This document shows, piece after piece, positions 2 to 11,936 of a stretch of 28,336 nucleotides of DNA (position 1 is its first letter; every line of letters starts with the position of its first letter). A program made the translations under genes and the position numbers. This stretch comes from a virus. Where the stretch lies: positions 1-28,336 of the IMG/VR virus record IMGVR_UViG_3300048079_000026. The stretch is one strand, 5' to 3'. The notes beneath the pieces are model-generated. The model did not search any database, was not told the origin of the DNA, and saw nothing but the letters and a program-made list of their open reading frames with translations.

Positions 2-1090
2 CGCGTGGACGCCGAGATCGCCCGCGAGCAGAAGCTGCTCGACCTGGCGGCGGAGAAGGCTTTTCCAGAGGCCGCGCGCGAGATCGCGCGGATCGGCGGC
101 GGAGAGCGCAAGCTCTCGAAGGAGGTCCGCGATATCTACGTCAAGTGGCTGCGCGGCGGGGACAAGGCGATCGCGAACGATGAGTGGCCGAAAATCCTCA
201 ACGTGCTCTCCACCGGCACCGGCTCGGAGGGCGGCTTCACGGTGCAGACCGAGATCGCCCGCGATCTCGTGGACGCGCTCAAGGCCTTCGGCGGCATGCG
301 TGAAGTGTCGGAAATTTTCGCGACGGCGCAGGGCAATCCGATGAACTTCCCGACATCGGACGGCACGGCGGAGGTGGGCGAGCTGATCGCGGAGAACGTG
401 ACGGCAACCGGCCTGGACCCGGTGTTCGGGACGGTCGGGCTCAACGTGTTCAAGTTCAGCTCGAAGATCATCGCCTGCCCGATCGAGCTGCTGCAGGATT
501 CCGAGATCGACATGGAAGGCTTCCTGCGCAACCGGATCCAGCAGCGCCTGGGCCGGATCACGAACCAGATGTTTACCACCGGCACCGGCTCGGCGCAACC
601 GCGCGGTGTGGTTGTCGGCGCGAGCGCGGGCAAGGTCGGCATCACCGGCCAGACGTTGACCGTGATCTACGATGACCTGATTGACCTGATCCATGCCGTG
701 GATCCGGCCTATCGCGGCTCGGGGCGGTGCGCGCTCATGATGAACGATTCGTCGGTGAAGGTGATCCGCAAGATCAAGGACACCAGCGGCCGGCCGATCT
801 GGGTGCCGGGTGACGAGCAGGGAATGACGCAGGGCGTGGCGGCCTCGCTGCTCGGCTATCGCCTCGTCACGAACCAGGACGTGGCAGTGATGGCGGCGAA
901 CGCGAAGTCGATCCTGTTCGGCGACTTCAATTACTACAAGATCCGCGACGTCATGACGGCGACGCTGTTCCGGTTCACGGACAGCGCCTACACCAAGCTC
1001 GGCCAGGTGGGCTTCCTCGCCTGGATGCGCGCGGGCGGCAACCTGGTGGATACCGCGGCGGTCAAGTACTACCAGAACAGCGCGACCTGA
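2..1090 (+). CDS. HK97-fold major capsid protein (5' end outside window)
   Basis: Major head subunit that would assemble the icosahedral shell. The frame is open to the left edge, so the start is lost; the GTG at 5 is only the first in-window start codon. At least 361 residues are visible, close to the usual HK97-type length. The first ~50 residues are charged and helical, like the end of a scaffold-like delta domain. Next comes a Gly-rich segment (STGTGSEGGFTV) typical of the junction before the mature N-arm, then the E-loop/P-domain pattern with MNFPTSDGTAEVGELIAEN and the helix IELLQDSEIDMEGFLRNRI. The family is recognised from this overall pattern rather than a catalytic motif. The connector genes lie several kilobases downstream, separated by an accessory block. 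Confidence 0.93.
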   Translation, partial: RVDAEIAREQKLLDLAAEKAFPEAAREIARIGGGERKLSKEVRDIYVKWLRGGDKAIANDEWPKILNVLSTGTGSEGGFTVQTEIARDLVDALKAFGGMREVSEIFATAQGNPMNFPTSDGTAEVGELIAENVTATGLDPVFGTVGLNVFKFSSKIIACPIELLQDSEIDMEGFLRNRIQQRLGRITNQMFTTGTGSAQPRGVVVGASAGKVGITGQTLTVIYDDLIDLIHAVDPAYRGSGRCALMMNDSSVKVIRKIKDTSGRPIWVPGDEQGMTQGVAASLLGYRLVTNQDVAVMAANAKSILFGDFNYYKIRDVMTATLFRFTDSAYTKLGQVGFLAWMRAGGNLVDTAAVKYYQNSAT

Positions 1091-1578: not shown

Positions 1579-2049
1579 ATGCTGCTGAAACGCATCTACA
1601 AGAAGCCACCCGGCTGGGAGGCGATGCGGAACGCCAAAGGCGAACTGCTCAACCCGCCGCCGATCGAGCACTTCGAGGTCCGCCACAGCGGCACGCACGC
1701 CGAGCAGAATTTCTCGACGGGGATGGTGGACGCCGGGCTCGCGGAAGGCTGGATCTCCATCGGCCAGGGTAAGCTTACGCTCCGCGCGAAGCCCGAGGAT
1801 CTCGTCTACGCGATCAAGCGCGGGCCCGGGCACTACTGCTGCCACTGCGGCGTAAAGCTGCCGGATGCGGCGGTGTTCGTCGCGCCGAAAGTCACCGGCG
1901 GCATGCAGCACGTCGCGTCGGTGCACCCGGGCAAGAAGTCGCCTGACGAGGGCAACCCGGCCGGCTACCTGCGGCTCAACCACTATGAATGCGTGCTCGC
2001 GCCCGAGCAGCACAAGAAGTTCCAGGCGCGCGCTCCGAGGAGGGCGTGA
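1579..2049 (+). CDS. Head-module protein with Cys/His cluster, unknown function
   Basis: A 156-residue protein preceded by AAGGAG seven bases before its ATG. A YCCHCG cluster (C87, C88, C90) and C138, with His residues nearby (H85, H89, H111, H116, H135), suggest a possible metal site. No signal peptide or membrane segment is visible. The C-terminus is basic (ARAPRRA). The stop overlaps the next start as TGATG at 2047-2051, which implies translational coupling. It lies between capsid and connector genes, so a structural role is plausible, but no family was recognised. Confidence 0.72.
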   Translation: MLLKRIYKKPPGWEAMRNAKGELLNPPPIEHFEVRHSGTHAEQNFSTGMVDAGLAEGWISIGQGKLTLRAKPEDLVYAIKRGPGHYCCHCGVKLPDAAVFVAPKVTGGMQHVASVHPGKKSPDEGNPAGYLRLNHYECVLAPEQHKKFQARAPRRA

Positions 2050-2522
2050 TGGCGGATCTCGTATTCAACATCGCAAAAGGGCGCGTCGCCGAGCTCTATA
2101 ACCGCGTGGATCTCAACGATCCGGCGAACTCGGCGCTCATCATCCTCATCCTCGCGACGGCCGGCATCGAGACCGATGCGGTGCTGCGCGACAAGAACGA
2201 CGTCGCGGATCTCGTCGTGGGCACGACGAACGAGGTGACGAACACCGGCTACGCCCGCAAGACGCTGACGGACACCGACATCGTCGCGTTCGCGCCGGAC
2301 GATACGAACGATCGGGTGGATCTCGACATCCCCGATCAGACCTGGACGGCGGTTGCCGCCGGCGACGGCTTCAACGACTTCGTTGTCAACTACGACAATG
2401 ACACCACGACCGGCACCGACGCCAACATCGTGCCGCTCACGCTGCACGATTTCGTGGTGGTGCCGGACGGCTCGGACATCACCGCGCAGATCGCGGCGGC
2501 GGGATTTTTCAGGGCGTCGTGA
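2049..2522 (+). CDS. Putative head structural or decoration protein
   Basis: A 157-residue protein. The start at 2049 is chosen because it overlaps the preceding stop (TGATG) and has GAGGAGGG just upstream; the frame runs further up with only Arg-rich shadow sequence. It is acidic, rich in Asp, Thr and Val, and has repeated beta-strand patterns (TDIVAFAPDDTNDRVDLDI, FNDFVVNYDNDTT). The opening MADLVFNIAKGRVAELYNRV is a small helical segment. The composition fits a beta-rich capsid accessory protein, but no family is assigned. Confidence 0.72.
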   Translation: MADLVFNIAKGRVAELYNRVDLNDPANSALIILILATAGIETDAVLRDKNDVADLVVGTTNEVTNTGYARKTLTDTDIVAFAPDDTNDRVDLDIPDQTWTAVAAGDGFNDFVVNYDNDTTTGTDANIVPLTLHDFVVVPDGSDITAQIAAAGFFRAS

Positions 2523-2562: not shown

Positions 2563-2913
2563 ATGAAAAACTTTCTGGCTGGAATCGTCGCGTTGTTGCT
2601 GTCGGTGCCGGCGTTCGCTGCCTCGAACGTGCTGACGTGGGACGACATGAGCACGAACGAGACCGGGTTCAGCGTGGAGCGGAAGCCCGAGGCGTGCACC
2701 GGGCTGGGGGCCTTCGGCATCATCGGGAGCGTGGCGGTGAACGTCAACACTTTCACCGATGCGTCGGTGGTCGAGGGCGTCACGTATTGCTACCGCGTCA
2801 GAGCTACGGGAGGAGGGGGGCTGTTCAGCGCGTATTCCAATAGCGCCGAGCGCCTCGTCCCTTTTACTGCGCCCGCTGCACCATCGGGCCTGACAATTCA
2901 AGGTGGCCCCTGA
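2563..2913 (+). CDS. Secreted fibronectin type III domain protein
   Basis: A 116-residue protein with a classical signal peptide: MKN, hydrophobic core LAGIVALLLSVPAFA, and likely cleavage after AFA near residue 19. The mature part is a single FN3 domain: LTWDDMSTNETGFSVERK, a central strand, then VTYCYRVRATG and AYSNSAERLV, ending in a Pro-rich strand. AAAGGAG precedes the ATG at 2563. Two Cys residues in the FN3 domain could pair after export. A signal peptide is unusual in a head operon. It could be a moron exported to the periplasm or cell surface, or a virion Ig-like decoration carrying an accidental export signal. Confidence 0.8.
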   Translation: MKNFLAGIVALLLSVPAFAASNVLTWDDMSTNETGFSVERKPEACTGLGAFGIIGSVAVNVNTFTDASVVEGVTYCYRVRATGGGGLFSAYSNSAERLVPFTAPAAPSGLTIQGGP

Positions 2914-2988: not shown

Positions 2989-3363
2989 ATGGCTATTGTC
3001 GTTCAAGGCCGCCAAATCAACATTCCCGACGGCAAGCGCGCACTGCTAGCCGAGGCGATCCCTGACGGACTGATGGTGGGCATCGTCGTGCTGAAACGGT
3101 CTACGTCCCTGACGCCGAGTTGGTGGTCGAACCCCCTGACGTGGTTGAAAGCGGACGCCTATCTCTCGCTCGATGATGGAGTGACATGGCTGCATCGCGG
3201 CGGTATTACTTCGGTGGGAGGCGTCGGTTTTGAAGGCGCAGCGGAGGTTCCGGAGTTGACATGGTGGTTTCAACTGCTGCCGGGAACGAATCGGAGAATT
3301 CGGGTGGAAGTCGAAGTTCAGAATGGTCCTCTGAACTCCGAACTTGATGTGATGGTGATCTGA
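2989..3363 (+). CDS. Hypothetical beta-rich phage protein
   Basis: A 124-residue protein starting after CCGGAGAG seven bases upstream. It is Trp-rich (SWWSNPLTWLK, TWLHRGG, LTWWFQLLPG) and built of alternating hydrophobic residues that suggest a beta-sandwich. The second half (NRRIRVEVEVQNGPLNSEL) reads as strands of a lectin-like or Ig-like fold. The stop overlaps the next start (TGATG at 3361-3365). It belongs to the accessory block between capsid and connector genes, so a head-surface role is possible. The family is unknown to me. Confidence 0.7.
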   Translation: MAIVVQGRQINIPDGKRALLAEAIPDGLMVGIVVLKRSTSLTPSWWSNPLTWLKADAYLSLDDGVTWLHRGGITSVGGVGFEGAAEVPELTWWFQLLPGTNRRIRVEVEVQNGPLNSELDVMVI

Positions 3364-4091
3364 TGCCGATTGCACGAGTCTCTGGACAAACGCCGCAGGC
3401 GAACGGCGCGAATACTGTCCAGACAATTGCGATCACTCTGCCGCAGAACGTAGTGGCCGGGAACTTCATCGGCTGCATTGGCGGCTCACAGAATTCAAAC
3501 GCTCACATCTATTCTGATAACCTCGCGAACTCTTTTGCCAACGACGTGAGCCGAGATAGAGCGGTGGATGCCAATCATTGTTCCATCGGCACCGCGAAAA
3601 ATATCAGCACTGGAGGGGCCGCCACTATCACTCTCAGCCAGGACGGGACGCCAGCGAACGCTCGAATGGGCATCGCCGGGATGGAGTGGTCGGGCTTCTC
3701 TGGGGGTGCCGCTCTCGATAAAACTTTCAGCAACGATTCCGCCGGGACTCCGGGGACAAGTATTGACACCGGCGCGACGGCAGCGACGACGGCAAACGAC
3801 GAACTGCTGCTCGCCGGGGTCAAGGACTCGAATAACGGCGTGCCCTATACGTGGGGCAGTTCGTTTTCTCTGATCGCGGAAACCGGCTCAGCCGCTGGCC
3901 GCACCAGTTCTGGCGACCGCATCGTAACGGCAACCGGCACCTACAATGGAACGGCGACTGCCTCCAACTCGATCGCTTGGGCTGCTGTCATTGCTACTTA
4001 TAAAGCGGCGGCGGGCGGGGCTGCGCTGACTCACGACTTCTCACGCTTCCCGATTGAGAAATTGCGGACGCCTTCAGAGAGCTTCCTATGA
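3363..4091 (+). CDS. Putative virion surface (head decoration or fibre) protein
   Basis: A 242-residue protein dominated by Gly, Ala, Ser, Thr and Asn, with no charged helices. This composition is typical of beta-rich phage surface proteins. It opens with SGQTPQANGANTVQTIAITL and includes segments such as GTYNGTATASNSIAWAAVIATYKA near the C-terminus, resembling virion-displayed beta-sandwich proteins. The start is fixed by the TGATG overlap with the preceding gene, and its own stop overlaps the next start (ATGA at 4088-4091). Codon use looks less G+C-rich at third positions than in the neck genes, which suggests separate acquisition. No family assigned. Confidence 0.7.
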   Translation: MPIARVSGQTPQANGANTVQTIAITLPQNVVAGNFIGCIGGSQNSNAHIYSDNLANSFANDVSRDRAVDANHCSIGTAKNISTGGAATITLSQDGTPANARMGIAGMEWSGFSGGAALDKTFSNDSAGTPGTSIDTGATAATTANDELLLAGVKDSNNGVPYTWGSSFSLIAETGSAAGRTSSGDRIVTATGTYNGTATASNSIAWAAVIATYKAAAGGAALTHDFSRFPIEKLRTPSESFL

Positions 4092-4903
4092 GACTCGCGG
4101 CAACCACTGACAAGCTGCAGCTCGTCACCAGCGCGGCGGCGTCGATCGACTCGGTCGTCAACTACATTGACGCGAGCAGCTCGACCGGCGCGTTCTCCGG
4201 CGGCGGCAGCCAGCGCGCGGCGATCACGACCGCGGCGACGACGGACATCCTCGCTGCGCCGGGCGCCAGCACCCTGCGCGATATGACGAGCGGGACGTGG
4301 CGCAACAAGCACGCCTCGCTGTCGTGCGACGTGACGGTGGTGCTGGATGCGAACGGAACCGATTACGAGCTTCATAAGGCGACGCTCGCGCCGGGCGATT
4401 GCCTCGAGTACATCGAGAATATCGGGTTCTTCACGCTGAAGGCCAGCGACAAGCTCGATAAGCTGCTGGTGGTGACGGCGGACGTCATCAACGCGACCAC
4501 GGCATTCGCCGACATCACCGGCCTCACCTATCCGGTCACGTCGGGCAAGACTTACTCGATCCTGGCTGAGCTGTTTCACGCCAACGACGCCGCGACGACC
4601 GGCTCGCGCTTCGGCTTCAACGGGCCGGCGATGACCTACGACATCTACGCGACGATCGACACGGTGACGCCGAGCGTGACCGCGTCGGCGCACTCAGCGG
4701 GCGCAGTGACGGCGCAGGAGACGGCGATCACCGCCCAGACCACCGGATCGACGAGCAACCGCCTTGCGCATATCGCAGGCATCATCGTGCCCTCGGCGGA
4801 CGGCACGCTCGCCGCGCGCTGCGCATCGGAGATAGCGGTCGCGGCCGGTCTGACGGTGCGGCGCGGGTCGTGGATGTGGCTGCGCGAGGCTGACAACGCT
4901 TAG
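4088..4903 (+). CDS. Putative virion structural protein
   Basis: A 271-residue protein, coupled to the upstream gene by ATGA. The N-terminal ~110 residues (LAATTDKLQLVTSAAASID ... LVVTAD) look like one beta domain. The rest (INATTAFADITGLTYPVTSG, YSILAELFHANDAATTGSR) resembles C-terminal beta modules found in phage fibres and decoration proteins. There is no signal peptide or membrane segment. It precedes the repeat protein gene by 19 bases, and the two probably act together on the virion. Function is inferred from composition and position only. Confidence 0.7.
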   Translation: MRLAATTDKLQLVTSAAASIDSVVNYIDASSSTGAFSGGGSQRAAITTAATTDILAAPGASTLRDMTSGTWRNKHASLSCDVTVVLDANGTDYELHKATLAPGDCLEYIENIGFFTLKASDKLDKLLVVTADVINATTAFADITGLTYPVTSGKTYSILAELFHANDAATTGSRFGFNGPAMTYDIYATIDTVTPSVTASAHSAGAVTAQETAITAQTTGSTSNRLAHIAGIIVPSADGTLAARCASEIAVAAGLTVRRGSWMWLREADNA

Positions 4904-4922
4904 TCTTTAGCGAGCAGCGATC

Positions 4923-6005
4923 GTGACGACGCGGGTATTCCACAAGAGCGTAGTTCCGAGCGCGTGGTTCGACCGGCGGACGGCGGGCGGATGGCTGTCG
5001 CGGAATTTTCTAACGGTAAGCGGCGGCATCACCGTCGCCATCGGCCAGGTCGTCGAGACCGACCTCGCACAGCCGATCGCGTGGGCGCCGAAGCACCGGC
5101 TCGTGGCGCAGGTCCTGGAAACCGACCTCGCGCAGGCGGTGACGGCGCGCAAGACGAAGGCGATCGGCCAGGCGCTGGAAATCGACAACGCCCAGGCGCT
5201 CAGCGCGCGCAAAAGCGTGACTGTGGCGCAGGCGTTCGAGACGGATCTCGCGCAGGCGCTCGGGCGCCTCAAGGTCAAGGCGATCGCGCAGGCCTCTGAG
5301 ACGGATCTCGCGCAGGCGTTGACTGCCCGCAAGACGAAGGCGATCGGCCAGGCGGCGGAGACCGACCTCGCGCAGCCGGTCACCTTCTCCGGCGCCAAGA
5401 CCATCGCGGTCGCGCAAGCGAACGAGACCGACACGGCGCAGCCTATTGTCTGGGCGCCGAAGATCCGCGTGGTGGCGCAGGTGGCGGAGGCGGACGTCGC
5501 CCAGGCCGTCAGCGCGCGCAAGACCAAGGGCATCGGCCTCGTCCTCGAGATCGACACGGCGCAGGCGATCACGCGGGTCAAGTCACGGGCGATCGGGCAG
5601 GCGGCCGAGACCGACATCGCGCAGCTCATCGCCCGCTCGAAGGCGAAGGCGATCGGGCAGGCGGTGGAGACGGATTCGGCGCAGCCTGTCAGCCGGCCCA
5701 AGCTGGTAGGTGTCGGGCTCGTCCTCGAGATCGACGTATCCCAGGCGATCATCCGCATTAAGTCGCGCACGCTGGGGCAGCCGGCGGAGAGCGACACAGC
5801 TCAAGGGATTACTTACTTCAAATCGCGCACGATCGGCGCAGCGCTCGAATTCGATCTTGCACAAGCGATCACGGCAGAGGGCGGCCGGCCGCCGACGGTA
5901 GCTGGGCCACCGGGAGCGGGGCCGCGACTGAGGATCGGAACGGAACAGCGGCCGAGCTCGATCACTGAACGCAGGCCGCAATCGACAGGGTCACGACGTC
6001 CATGA
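4923..6005 (+). CDS. Protein of 14 tandem 20-residue E-T-D-x-A-Q repeats
   Basis: A 360-residue protein with a GTG start. Residues 1-37 form a unique head (VFHKSVVPSAWFDRRTAGGW). Residues 38-321 are 14 tandem units of consensus xAIGQAxETDxAQAIxxRKxK. The conserved Glu falls at 45, 66, 86, 106, 126, 146, 168, 189, 209, 229, 249, 269, 289 and 309. Residues 322-360 are a Pro/Arg-rich tail. Alternating small hydrophobic residues around the polar ETD turn suggest two short strands per unit, hence a beta-solenoid or fibrous stalk (inference). The ribosome site is weak. The 3' end overlaps the next gene (ATGA at 6002-6005). It sits in the head module, so a head fibre or surface filament is the leading guess. 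Confidence 0.78.
   Translation: MTTRVFHKSVVPSAWFDRRTAGGWLSRNFLTVSGGITVAIGQVVETDLAQPIAWAPKHRLVAQVLETDLAQAVTARKTKAIGQALEIDNAQALSARKSVTVAQAFETDLAQALGRLKVKAIAQASETDLAQALTARKTKAIGQAAETDLAQPVTFSGAKTIAVAQANETDTAQPIVWAPKIRVVAQVAEADVAQAVSARKTKGIGLVLEIDTAQAITRVKSRAIGQAAETDIAQLIARSKAKAIGQAVETDSAQPVSRPKLVGVGLVLEIDVSQAIIRIKSRTLGQPAESDTAQGITYFKSRTIGAALEFDLAQAITAEGGRPPTVAGPPGAGPRLRIGTEQRPSSITERRPQSTGSRRP
5034..5885 (+). repeat. Tandem ~60-bp coding repeats, 14 units
   Basis: This is the DNA encoding the 14 peptide units of the preceding gene. Most units are exactly 60 bases; units 1, 6 and 7 are 3-6 bases longer. Units 1 and 7 share WAPK, units 2 and 8 share VAQV...ARKTK, and units 3 and 9 share LEID. This suggests duplication of a block of six units. 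Units 9-11 and 12-14 look like a further three-unit duplication. The copies have diverged at the DNA level. Confidence 0.85.
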
Positions 6006-6790
6006 ACATCCGGCAAGTAACACTCCCGACGGCGGAGCCGATATCGGTCGCGCAGGCGAAGGCGCACATCAAGGCGCTCACCAACGACGAGGACGCCTTA
6101 ATTGCGCGCTGGATCAAGACGGCGCGCGAGCAGGCCGAGGCGATGCTCAACCGCGCGGTCGTCGCGAGGACATGGGAAAAGCAGCTCGACGCCTTCCCGG
6201 TCTCGCTCGAATTGCCGTGGGCGCCGGTGCGGTCGGTGACGTCGCTCAAGTACCTGGACGTCGATGGCGTCGAGCAAACCATCGCCCCGGCGAGCTACAC
6301 GCTCGACAAGCATGCAACACCGGGCTGGATCGTGCCCGCCTATGGCTTCGCCTGGCCGTCGACGCGCGCGGATATCAACGCGGTACGCGTGCGCTACGTC
6401 GCCGGCATGGCGATACCGTTCACCGTGGACCCGAGCACCGATCTGTTGACGGCGGCGGGGCACGGTTACGCGAGCGGTGATGAGGTTCCGTTCTTTACCA
6501 CAGGCACGGCCCCGGGTGGCCTCACGGACGGGGGGCAGTACTTTGCCCGCGATGTGACAGCGGACACGCTCAAGCTCGCGACGACGCCGGGCGGAAACGT
6601 GATCGATATCACGACGGCCGGGGCCGGCGGGAATTTCTTAGGGCAACTGCCGGACGCGATCATCGCAGCGATGCTGCTCATGCTCGGGCATTGGGAGCTG
6701 CACCGCGAGGAAGTGGCCGAGCGCCAGCTCTACGAGATCCCGCTCGGCGCGCAATCGCTGCTGCGACCCAACTCGCTGCTGGTGATTTGA
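6002..6790 (+). CDS. Head-tail connector, phiE125 gp8/HK97 gp6-like, with inserted domain
   Basis: A neck adaptor that would sit below the portal ring. Residues 1-50 hold the helical core (ISVAQAKAHIKALTNDEDAL, IARWIKTAREQAEAMLNRAV). Residues 55-137 are the beta part (LPWAPVRSVTSLKYLDVDGV, VRVRYVAGMA). The C-terminal helix lies at 216-262 (LPDAIIAAMLLMLGHWELHREEV, PLGAQSLLRPNSLLVI). Family members are usually ~190 residues; this one has 262. The excess is residues ~138-214 (GHGYASGDEVPFF, QYFARDVTADTLKLATTPGG), a beta module of a kind repeated in other phage structural proteins. The start overlaps the upstream stop (ATGA) and the stop overlaps the next start (TGATG). Confidence 0.85.
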   Translation: MNIRQVTLPTAEPISVAQAKAHIKALTNDEDALIARWIKTAREQAEAMLNRAVVARTWEKQLDAFPVSLELPWAPVRSVTSLKYLDVDGVEQTIAPASYTLDKHATPGWIVPAYGFAWPSTRADINAVRVRYVAGMAIPFTVDPSTDLLTAAGHGYASGDEVPFFTTGTAPGGLTDGGQYFARDVTADTLKLATTPGGNVIDITTAGAGGNFLGQLPDAIIAAMLLMLGHWELHREEVAERQLYEIPLGAQSLLRPNSLLVI

Positions 6791-9927: not shown

Positions 9928-11936
9928 GCAGCGGCAACGTAACCTACAGCATCGATTTTGTCGCCGCGATCGCGCGCCTCGAGGAAGGTACGAAGGCGGG
10001 CGCACGCCATGTCAAACGCATGGCGGACGAGATGGAGGGCGCCGCGAACTTCGCGCGCAACGCGCTGCTGACGCTGGGCGGTGCGCTGGGCGTGTTCTCG
10101 TTCTCGTCCGCGATCAAGCAGGCCTCGGAGGCGGCCGATGCAGCCGCCAAGATGGGCGATCGCTTCGGCATCGCCACCGAGAAGATCATCGGCCTGCAGC
10201 ACGCCGGTGCGCTGGCCGGCGCGAGCAACGAGGCGCTGGCCACGGCGCTTCGCGGGCTGGCGAATTCTGGCGTCGATGCGGCGCGTGGCAGCGAGTCGGC
10301 CGCGCGCGCGTACGCTGCGTTGAAGATCAACGCCTCCGAGTTCATCAACCTGCCGATGGACCGGCAGTTCACGCTGGTGATCGAGCGCCTGGGCGGACTT
10401 GAAAACGCGACACTCAGGAACGCGCTCGCCCAGGACCTGCTCGGCAAGTCCGCCGGCGAAGTCATGGGGCTGGTTGCGGAGGGGGGTGACGCCATCCGCA
10501 AGGCGACGGAGGATGCCGAGGCGTGGGGCCTGGCGCTCAATCGAGTGGACGCGGCCAAGCTCGAGCTGGCGAATGACGCGATGACGCGGGCGAAGGCCGC
10601 GGCGCAGGGAGTTTTTACCACCATCGCGATCAATCTGTCGCCGGCCATCAAGCTGCTCGCCGACCGCTTTGCCGACAGCGCGGTCGAGGCGAAGGGATTC
10701 AAGACGGAAGTCACGGAGGGCATGCAGAGGGCAAGCGATGCCGTGGGCGGGGCGATCTGGTTCGTGGAACGACTGCAGTTCGCTTGGTCGGGGTTGAAAT
10801 ATCTCGCTGCGCTCGCGATTAACGGAATCATCCAGAGCCTCGCCGAGCTCGATCGCGCCTATACCGACACGATGAATTCGCTTGCCGCGTCGTGGATCGG
10901 CAAACGGCTCGGGATGGAGGCACGCGAATATAGCGTGGCGCTCTCCGAGATGGCGGACGTTGCGGGGAGCCGGGTCGCAGCACTGAAAGAGGAACTCGAG
11001 CAACTGGCGCTTGGGGCGCGAGACCTCGACCAATGGCAGGAAGTCGTCCGCACTTCGTTCAGGCAGGCCGCGGATGCTGTCGAAGAGGAAGCCAGGCGGA
11101 TCGCCGAGGCGCGCCAGAAGATGATGGGCGGCGGCGAAGCGGGCGTCACGCGCGAGGGTAAGGAGGTCAAGGAGGATCCCTGGCAGAAACAAGTCGCCGA
11201 GCGCATGGAGCGCCTGGCTTTCGAGAACGCAACGGAACTCGAGCAACTGCAGATTCAGCTCGAGGCGAAACAGAATCTGCTCGACGCTAGCAAGGCCCTG
11301 GGAATTATCAGCGAGGAGGAGCACCAGAGACAGACTTTCGAGATCTTCGCCCGATACCAGGACGCCAAGACCCGGGTCGAGGACGATGCGGTCAAGAAGC
11401 GCTACGGGATCGCCAAGGTTTACCGCAAACTCGACATGGAGTCGGCGGCATTTGCATTGAACTCGGTCTCCGGGTTGATGCAATCTGAAAGCCGCAAGAT
11501 GTTCGAAGTCGGCAAGGCGGCGGCGATCGGCGAGACGGTGATCAACACCTACGCCGCCGCGATGGGGGCTGCCAAGGCGCTGGCGAGCATTCTTTACGTC
11601 GGGCCGTTTCTCGCTGCGGCCGCTGCAGCGGCGATGATCGTCGTGGGCATGGAGCGAGTGCGGCAGATCCGCTCGACGCAGTTTGGCGGCGGCTCGGTCT
11701 CGGGCGGGGCGAGCCCGGTGTTCTCGGCCAATCCCACGACCGGCGTGCCGGACGCGCCGATTGGAGCATCTGCCGCGCCGCCTCCAGTCTTGCCGCAAGC
11801 GGCCGCTGCGCCACGCAATGTGAACATCACGCTGATCACCGACGGCGGGCCGGTGAGCCAGGATTGGATTCGCTTCACGCTCCTCCCCGGCCTCAACGAA
11901 GCGCTCGATGACCGCGCCACGATCACGGTCAACTAG
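9924..11936 (+). CDS. Tail tape measure protein
   Basis: A 670-residue tail length determinant and probable DNA-ejection factor. It begins with a short beta/helical segment, then LEEGTKAGARHVKRMADEME. Ala-rich hydrophobic segments follow at ~47-60 (ALLTLGGALGVFSF), ~290-312 and ~535-555 (GPFLAAAAAAAMIVVG). Long coiled-coil stretches lie between (RMERLAFENATELEQLQIQL, QLEAKQNLLDASKALGIISE). Composition, length and position just after the G/GT chaperones support the call. It is short for the family; at roughly 1.5 angstrom per residue this predicts a tail near 100 nm. No lytic transglycosylase or peptidase domain is apparent. Confidence 0.92.
   Translation: MSSGNVTYSIDFVAAIARLEEGTKAGARHVKRMADEMEGAANFARNALLTLGGALGVFSFSSAIKQASEAADAAAKMGDRFGIATEKIIGLQHAGALAGASNEALATALRGLANSGVDAARGSESAARAYAALKINASEFINLPMDRQFTLVIERLGGLENATLRNALAQDLLGKSAGEVMGLVAEGGDAIRKATEDAEAWGLALNRVDAAKLELANDAMTRAKAAAQGVFTTIAINLSPAIKLLADRFADSAVEAKGFKTEVTEGMQRASDAVGGAIWFVERLQFAWSGLKYLAALAINGIIQSLAELDRAYTDTMNSLAASWIGKRLGMEAREYSVALSEMADVAGSRVAALKEELEQLALGARDLDQWQEVVRTSFRQAADAVEEEARRIAEARQKMMGGGEAGVTREGKEVKEDPWQKQVAERMERLAFENATELEQLQIQLEAKQNLLDASKALGIISEEEHQRQTFEIFARYQDAKTRVEDDAVKKRYGIAKVYRKLDMESAAFALNSVSGLMQSESRKMFEVGKAAAIGETVINTYAAAMGAAKALASILYVGPFLAAAAAAAMIVVGMERVRQIRSTQFGGGSVSGGASPVFSANPTTGVPDAPIGASAAPPPVLPQAAAAPRNVNITLITDGGPVSQDWIRFTLLPGLNEALDDRATITVN

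Follow-up and report, generated by a model that had tools for sequence, protein, structure and literature searches.

A 20-residue repeat protein and its partner gene as a candidate accessory virion module of tailed phages

Why should a phage encode, between its capsid and connector genes, a protein made of fourteen copies of a 20-residue unit? The question is raised by a 28,336-base virus record in IMG/VR (the window, meaning the whole stretch of DNA that was analysed), in which a preliminary description had placed such a gene, here called REP, between head genes and had proposed that it encodes a head-surface fibre or adhesin. The placement is borne out by family matches, with a PF05065 capsid gene on one side and a phrog_442 adaptor gene on the other. 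We think it probable, from sequence comparisons, that REP and a 157-residue partner encoded upstream are the central pair of a mobile accessory module of the virion, in which REP would be a fibrous, length-variable adhesin exposed on the particle. The features concerned are:

5–1090, plus strand: HK97-type major capsid protein (PF05065, 1.7e-59; phrog_10)
1579–2049, plus strand: second cassette gene, 156 aa, without a known family; immediately 5' of the partner gene in 107 of 154 loci
2049–2522, plus strand: partner gene, 157 aa (phrog_26662), linked to REP, with a good Shine–Dalgarno sequence (GAGGAGG); a possible anchor or adaptor
2563–2913, plus strand: small FN3/Hoc-like protein (phrog_18315, 1.4e-5; phrog_10993, Hoc-like head decoration, 0.0033); variable cargo
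2989–3363, plus strand: protein without known function, with weak homologues 5' of the repeat gene in loci L005 and L008
3363–4091, plus strand: protein without known function or family match
4088–4903, plus strand: protein without known function or credible family match, immediately 5' of REP
4923–6005, plus strand: REP, 360 aa, with 14 units of about 20 residues (residues ~39–328) and a basic tail of about 38 residues
5612–5791, plus strand: three-unit (60-residue) stretch missing in relative L003 by protein alignment, its boundaries approximate because repeats align ambiguously
6002–6790, plus strand: head–tail adaptor (phrog_442, 3.8e-21) with a tail-fibre-like insertion (residues 142–210; phrog_7765, phrog_9370)

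Two of the neighbours have features of their own. The small FN3/Hoc-like gene (2563–2913, plus strand) has a good Shine–Dalgarno sequence and a signal-peptide-like start (MKNFLAGIVALLLSVPAFAA), and its product is apparently an exported protein amid head genes, between capsid and connector. The insertion of about 70 residues in the adaptor (6425–6631, plus strand; residues 142–210) matches the tail-fibre- or baseplate-associated PHROGs 7765, 9370 and 2885.

The repeat array in the window

REP opens with a GTG codon that no clear Shine–Dalgarno sequence precedes, and its exact start is therefore uncertain. The array itself is unambiguous. Fourteen anchors of the pattern E[TIASF]Dx[AS]Q are spaced at 21, 20, 20, 20, 20, 22, 21, 20, 20, 20, 20, 20 and 20 residues, and the count of the preliminary description (14 units and 13 spacings, ten of them exactly 20) is confirmed by the anchors, by shuffling and by autocorrelation. 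When the protein was shuffled 10,000 times, no shuffle held more than one anchor and a spacing of 20 never arose, and the autocorrelation of REP is 0.32 at lag 20 vs 0.04–0.14 at adjacent lags.

Block duplications of six and of three units had also been suggested. Identity at the six-unit lag of 123 residues is 0.33 and comes mostly from units 1–2 against units 7–8 (65 and 75 per cent), so that a six-unit duplication is supported for the first units only. The three-unit block fares better: units 9 and 12 are 75 per cent identical, and the duplication is independently supported because the closest relative, L003, lacks exactly 60 residues at that place in the protein alignment. L003 thus carries 11 units where the window REP carries 14, which indicates that unit number varies by whole units, as had been proposed. 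The shared part of the two genes (271 codons) has a dN/dS of 0.25, and the frame is therefore under purifying selection. An open frame of 296 aa runs antisense to REP (4907–5797, minus strand) and probably arises incidentally from repeated, GC-rich codons.

A widespread family and its linked partner

Homologues of REP proved abundant in other phages. In IMG/VR the repeat matched at least 216 related stretches, of which 79 loci were kept, while tblastn among annotated phages matched the Streptomyces phages Hiyaa and Spocter as the sole hits; two Streptomyces plasmids with phage genes match as well. Besides these records, phages and plasmid prophages, family members are found in bacterial genomes. 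The window REP has a profile match to phrog_14065 (3.4e-26), as do 13 of 13 members of REP set A2; this one strong PHROG match is without an assigned function, and no Pfam family covers the 20-residue unit. Weak Pfam matches of REP to vWA_Ro60, HhH-GPD and TRF were considered spurious.

The core of the unit, taken over 1456 units in 108 distinct arrays, reads [ATL][VIL]GQ[AV]xETD[LT]AQ[AP][IVL]T, conserved at E (96 per cent), A11 (89 per cent), D (88 per cent), Q4 and Q12 (84 per cent each), with flanks that drift. The core is near-palindromic about its central T (I2-Q4-A5-E7-T8-D9-A11-Q12-I14), as can be seen directly in the sequence. Complete ORFs (131) hold between 3 and 28 units, with a median of 14, weak units being under-counted in diverged arrays. 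The identity of unit pairs at the DNA level is 56 per cent within arrays vs 49 per cent between them, and in 8 of the 108 arrays two units reach 95 per cent identity or more, which indicates recent duplication in those eight.

Relatives of REP have variable N-termini with weak LamG, polysaccharide-lyase-like or Ig matches, the lectin-like ones scoring below the curated Pfam cut-offs. Two relatives have an Ig_2 match; the window REP lacks an Ig domain and has a short N-terminus without a family match. A second short repeat of about 10–11 residues (e.g. RDEDGRF..., AERRRFVVAAEKRRLAV...) is present in the C-terminal tails of L006 (8930–9125) and L019 (12800–12927). In Pam4 (L016) a degenerate repeat-like stretch, noticed by eye at 10552–10720, opens a large gene after a polysaccharide lyase and suggests a repeat fused to a tail-region protein.

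The partner gene, absent from the preliminary description as was the mobility of the pair, matches phrog_26662 (4.6e-35), also without an assigned function. Searching IMG/VR with it gave 312 related stretches, of which 80 loci were kept, and 18 bacterial assemblies contain homologues, among them actinobacterial genomes and a Nitrosomonas metagenome-assembled genome. Because loci were collected by searching with the repeat or with the partner, separately, each linkage test is fair for the gene that was not searched with. Upstream DNA of 5.5 kb or more was available for 51 repeat loci, and all 51 have the partner. Conversely, 43 partner loci offered at least 6 kb of downstream DNA, and in 42 of them a repeat ORF lay within 6.5 kb on that side; the remaining locus has it upstream. 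In loci that carry the two genes, 132 of 132 repeat ORFs were on the strand of the partner, some of the linkage loci being overlapping or near-identical records and hence not independent. Partner and repeat gene are likewise adjacent in the diverged actinobacterial cases (the plasmids and Hiyaa). The order of genes is altered in L023, L055, L062 and L170, where the repeat gene comes first, ahead of both the gene corresponding to 1579–2049 and the partner.

In most loci whose other genes barely or not detectably resemble those of the window, the partner is still 65–87 per cent identical. The pair therefore moves between lineages, which implies that it is passed on as a cassette among otherwise unrelated tailed phages.

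Predicted folds and remote kinship

The preliminary description saw in each unit two short strands around a polar turn, suited to a beta-solenoid or stalk. That proposal drew no support from single-chain prediction: an AlphaFold2 (AF2) monomer of REP, built on a shallow alignment of 13 sequences, gave no usable model (pLDDT 38, pTM 0.19), with low-confidence helices and zero strands. The regular coils of a beta-solenoid are accordingly missing from this monomeric, shallow-alignment model, a search of PDB sequences for solved relatives of REP gave matches at chance level, and PDB sequence and fold searches with REP and the partner yielded nothing that supports a fibre fold. Given the lack of a confident structure REP may be disordered. 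With so shallow an alignment and a single chain the prediction tests the fold only weakly; it is no demonstration of disorder and leaves room for an oligomeric shaft.

The partner, in contrast to REP, is predicted with confidence (114 sequences, pLDDT 96.3). Among its homologues 79 of 114 match phrog_644 (best 3.4e-8; the window member 0.0021), the family to which Bxb1 gp31, deposited as 'tail wing arm' (PDB 9d93_Ra), belongs at 1.5e-42. Direct comparison of partner and gp31 gives a weak match (E 0.35), and a Foldseek search of the PDB returned no credible match, 9d93_Ra not being among the best 50 listed. In BFVD the partner fold finds phage proteins of no known function at TM 0.6–0.7, among them a 144-aa protein of Mycobacterium phage Onyinye (TM 0.67/0.72) and a 484-aa protein of Agrobacterium phage Atu_ph07, and more weakly tail-collar fibre proteins (TM about 0.4). 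We take these matches as a remote homology lead: the partner may be a distant relative of the virion appendage protein gp31, with no equivalence of role implied. A copy of the repeat suspected within the partner ('GIETDAVL', resembling 'ALETDLAQ') was dropped when profile comparison of the two came back empty.

A REP without a confident fold might be a flexible scaffold, each unit being a putative short linear motif on which a single partner copy docks; the array would then serve as a ruler or multivalent string for loading the partner onto the virion, and the partner would provide the functional surface. Such a division of labour would account for a partner that is the most conserved element and almost always accompanies the array, as well as for unit cores that stay highly constant over 1456 units while their flanks drift. 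We nonetheless judge it unlikely, since repeat and partner share no sequence similarity and a homotrimeric fibre would equally give constant cores. The same failure of prediction would suit an assembly or host-takeover factor that is encoded in a structural operon and never reaches the virion surface. There is, however, much to make this very improbable: relatives fuse the repeat to lectin-like and Ig-like domains, the genes sit in late structural or lysis regions, unit number is variable, and the partner is related to a virion protein.

Site on the particle and proposed role

It might be expected that the position of the cassette would reveal where its products are placed. In 46 records examined, a PF05065 capsid gene was found in 14, and in ten of these the partner follows it at a distance of 0.3–4.9 kb and in the same orientation; the remaining four have the partner upstream of the capsid gene or far away. 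With a 10–20 per cent chance of falling in that interval, random placement would give 10 of 14 with P < 5e-5, the records being partly non-independent. Elsewhere the surroundings differ. A portal-family gene follows REP in the L101 group, a podovirus portal/head–tail connector gene (PF12236, 1e-111) follows it in the podovirus-like L012 and L091, and in the Streptomyces plasmids the cassette lies beyond tail and lysis genes. A BppU-like baseplate domain that had seemed, by eye, to be present in the short proteins after REP in many loci was not borne out, the scanned ones giving head–tail joining or adaptor families or no match.

These surroundings bear on a rival location that is compatible with an adhesin, namely a tail-tip appendage resembling the tail wing of Bxb1, for which adjacency to capsid genes would be incidental. 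In its favour, the partner is remotely akin to the tail wing arm, the repeat gene directly precedes the tape measure gene in eight loci (L009, L010 and relatives), the partner of Pam4 comes after tape measure and baseplate genes, beside a gene annotated as a polysaccharide lyase, and gp13 of Hiyaa is called a minor tail protein, by annotation alone. It is nevertheless doubtful in view of the ten capsid-linked records and of the cassette's place before a portal gene in L012. Genome position by itself does not decide between head and tail, and a head location is only favoured. Of the proposal of a head-surface fibre or adhesin, then, the adhesin half gains from the N-terminal lectin-like and Ig-like domains of relatives and from the kinship of the partner, and the head half is favoured by 10 of 14 records, with the others elsewhere.

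We infer, with good support, a virion fibre or adhesin module. REP would lie at the virion surface, in most cases at or close to the head, and would display glycan-binding or other sticky domains supplied by its own N-terminus or by neighbouring genes; the reading fits the lectin-like or Ig-like domains that vary among the N-termini of relatives. In the window, where the N-terminus is short and unmatched, such domains would have to stem from neighbouring genes. The partner would anchor or organise REP. The module would help the phage to cling loosely and multivalently to the surface of the bacterium ahead of receptor engagement by the tail, and the fibre would lengthen or shorten as whole units are gained or lost. 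More speculatively, and held only tentatively, the two proteins could constitute a mobile virion adhesion organelle of a structural type not seen before, in which the near mirror-symmetric unit (IGQAxE-T-DxAQAI) adopts a new fibrous fold, alone or bound to the partner, and which is exchanged between phages of siphovirus-like and podovirus-like type whose hosts are very different bacteria, and is used at different sites on the particle.

The closest known arrangement is that of Hiyaa (Hiyaavirus; also Keanu, Spocter and Galactica), where gp12 and gp13, a partner homologue followed by a large protein of ~20-residue repeats, lie between capsid and head-to-tail adaptor genes. The Hiyaa repeats are, however, far more diverged (about 32–36 per cent identity) and preceded by a long non-repeat N-terminal region, the gene corresponding to 1579–2049 is lacking, and the repeat protein is annotated only as minor tail or hypothetical. 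With Bxb1 the cassette shares the phrog_644 family, but that link runs through sequence profiles only and no 20-residue repeat protein was identified in Bxb1.

Phage fibres and accessory decoration domains are already well known. BACON is a far longer, globular domain of carbohydrate-binding type, not a 20-residue unit, although it too forms tandem repeats in a phage protein. In crAss-like phages these repeats are regarded as an evolutionary hotspot (PMC6949934). T4 Hoc is reported to combine a conserved capsid-binding domain with variable Ig-like domains (PMC10385173). Hoc and similar Ig-like decoration proteins thus share with the cassette a conserved anchor and variable accessory adhesive domains, but here anchor and repeat are separate genes, the repeat is of 20 residues and non-Ig, and capsid binding is putative; a domain scan found no string of Ig domains within the window REP. 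The capsid fibres of phage 7-7-1 and the head filament of phiCbK are long, flexible head appendages that make first contact with the host flagellum (PMC12796354); neither phage showed a sequence link to the cassette or was among the matches of the repeat and partner searches.

A limited literature search found no description of the 20-residue repeat or of the partner cassette, whose structure and function appear undescribed. The present reading offers a function hypothesis for the PHROG families 14065, 26662 and 644, and hundreds of natural variants together with an isolated model phage, Hiyaa, are on offer for testing it. A module common to otherwise unrelated tailed phages may represent a general route to an adhesin of tunable length.
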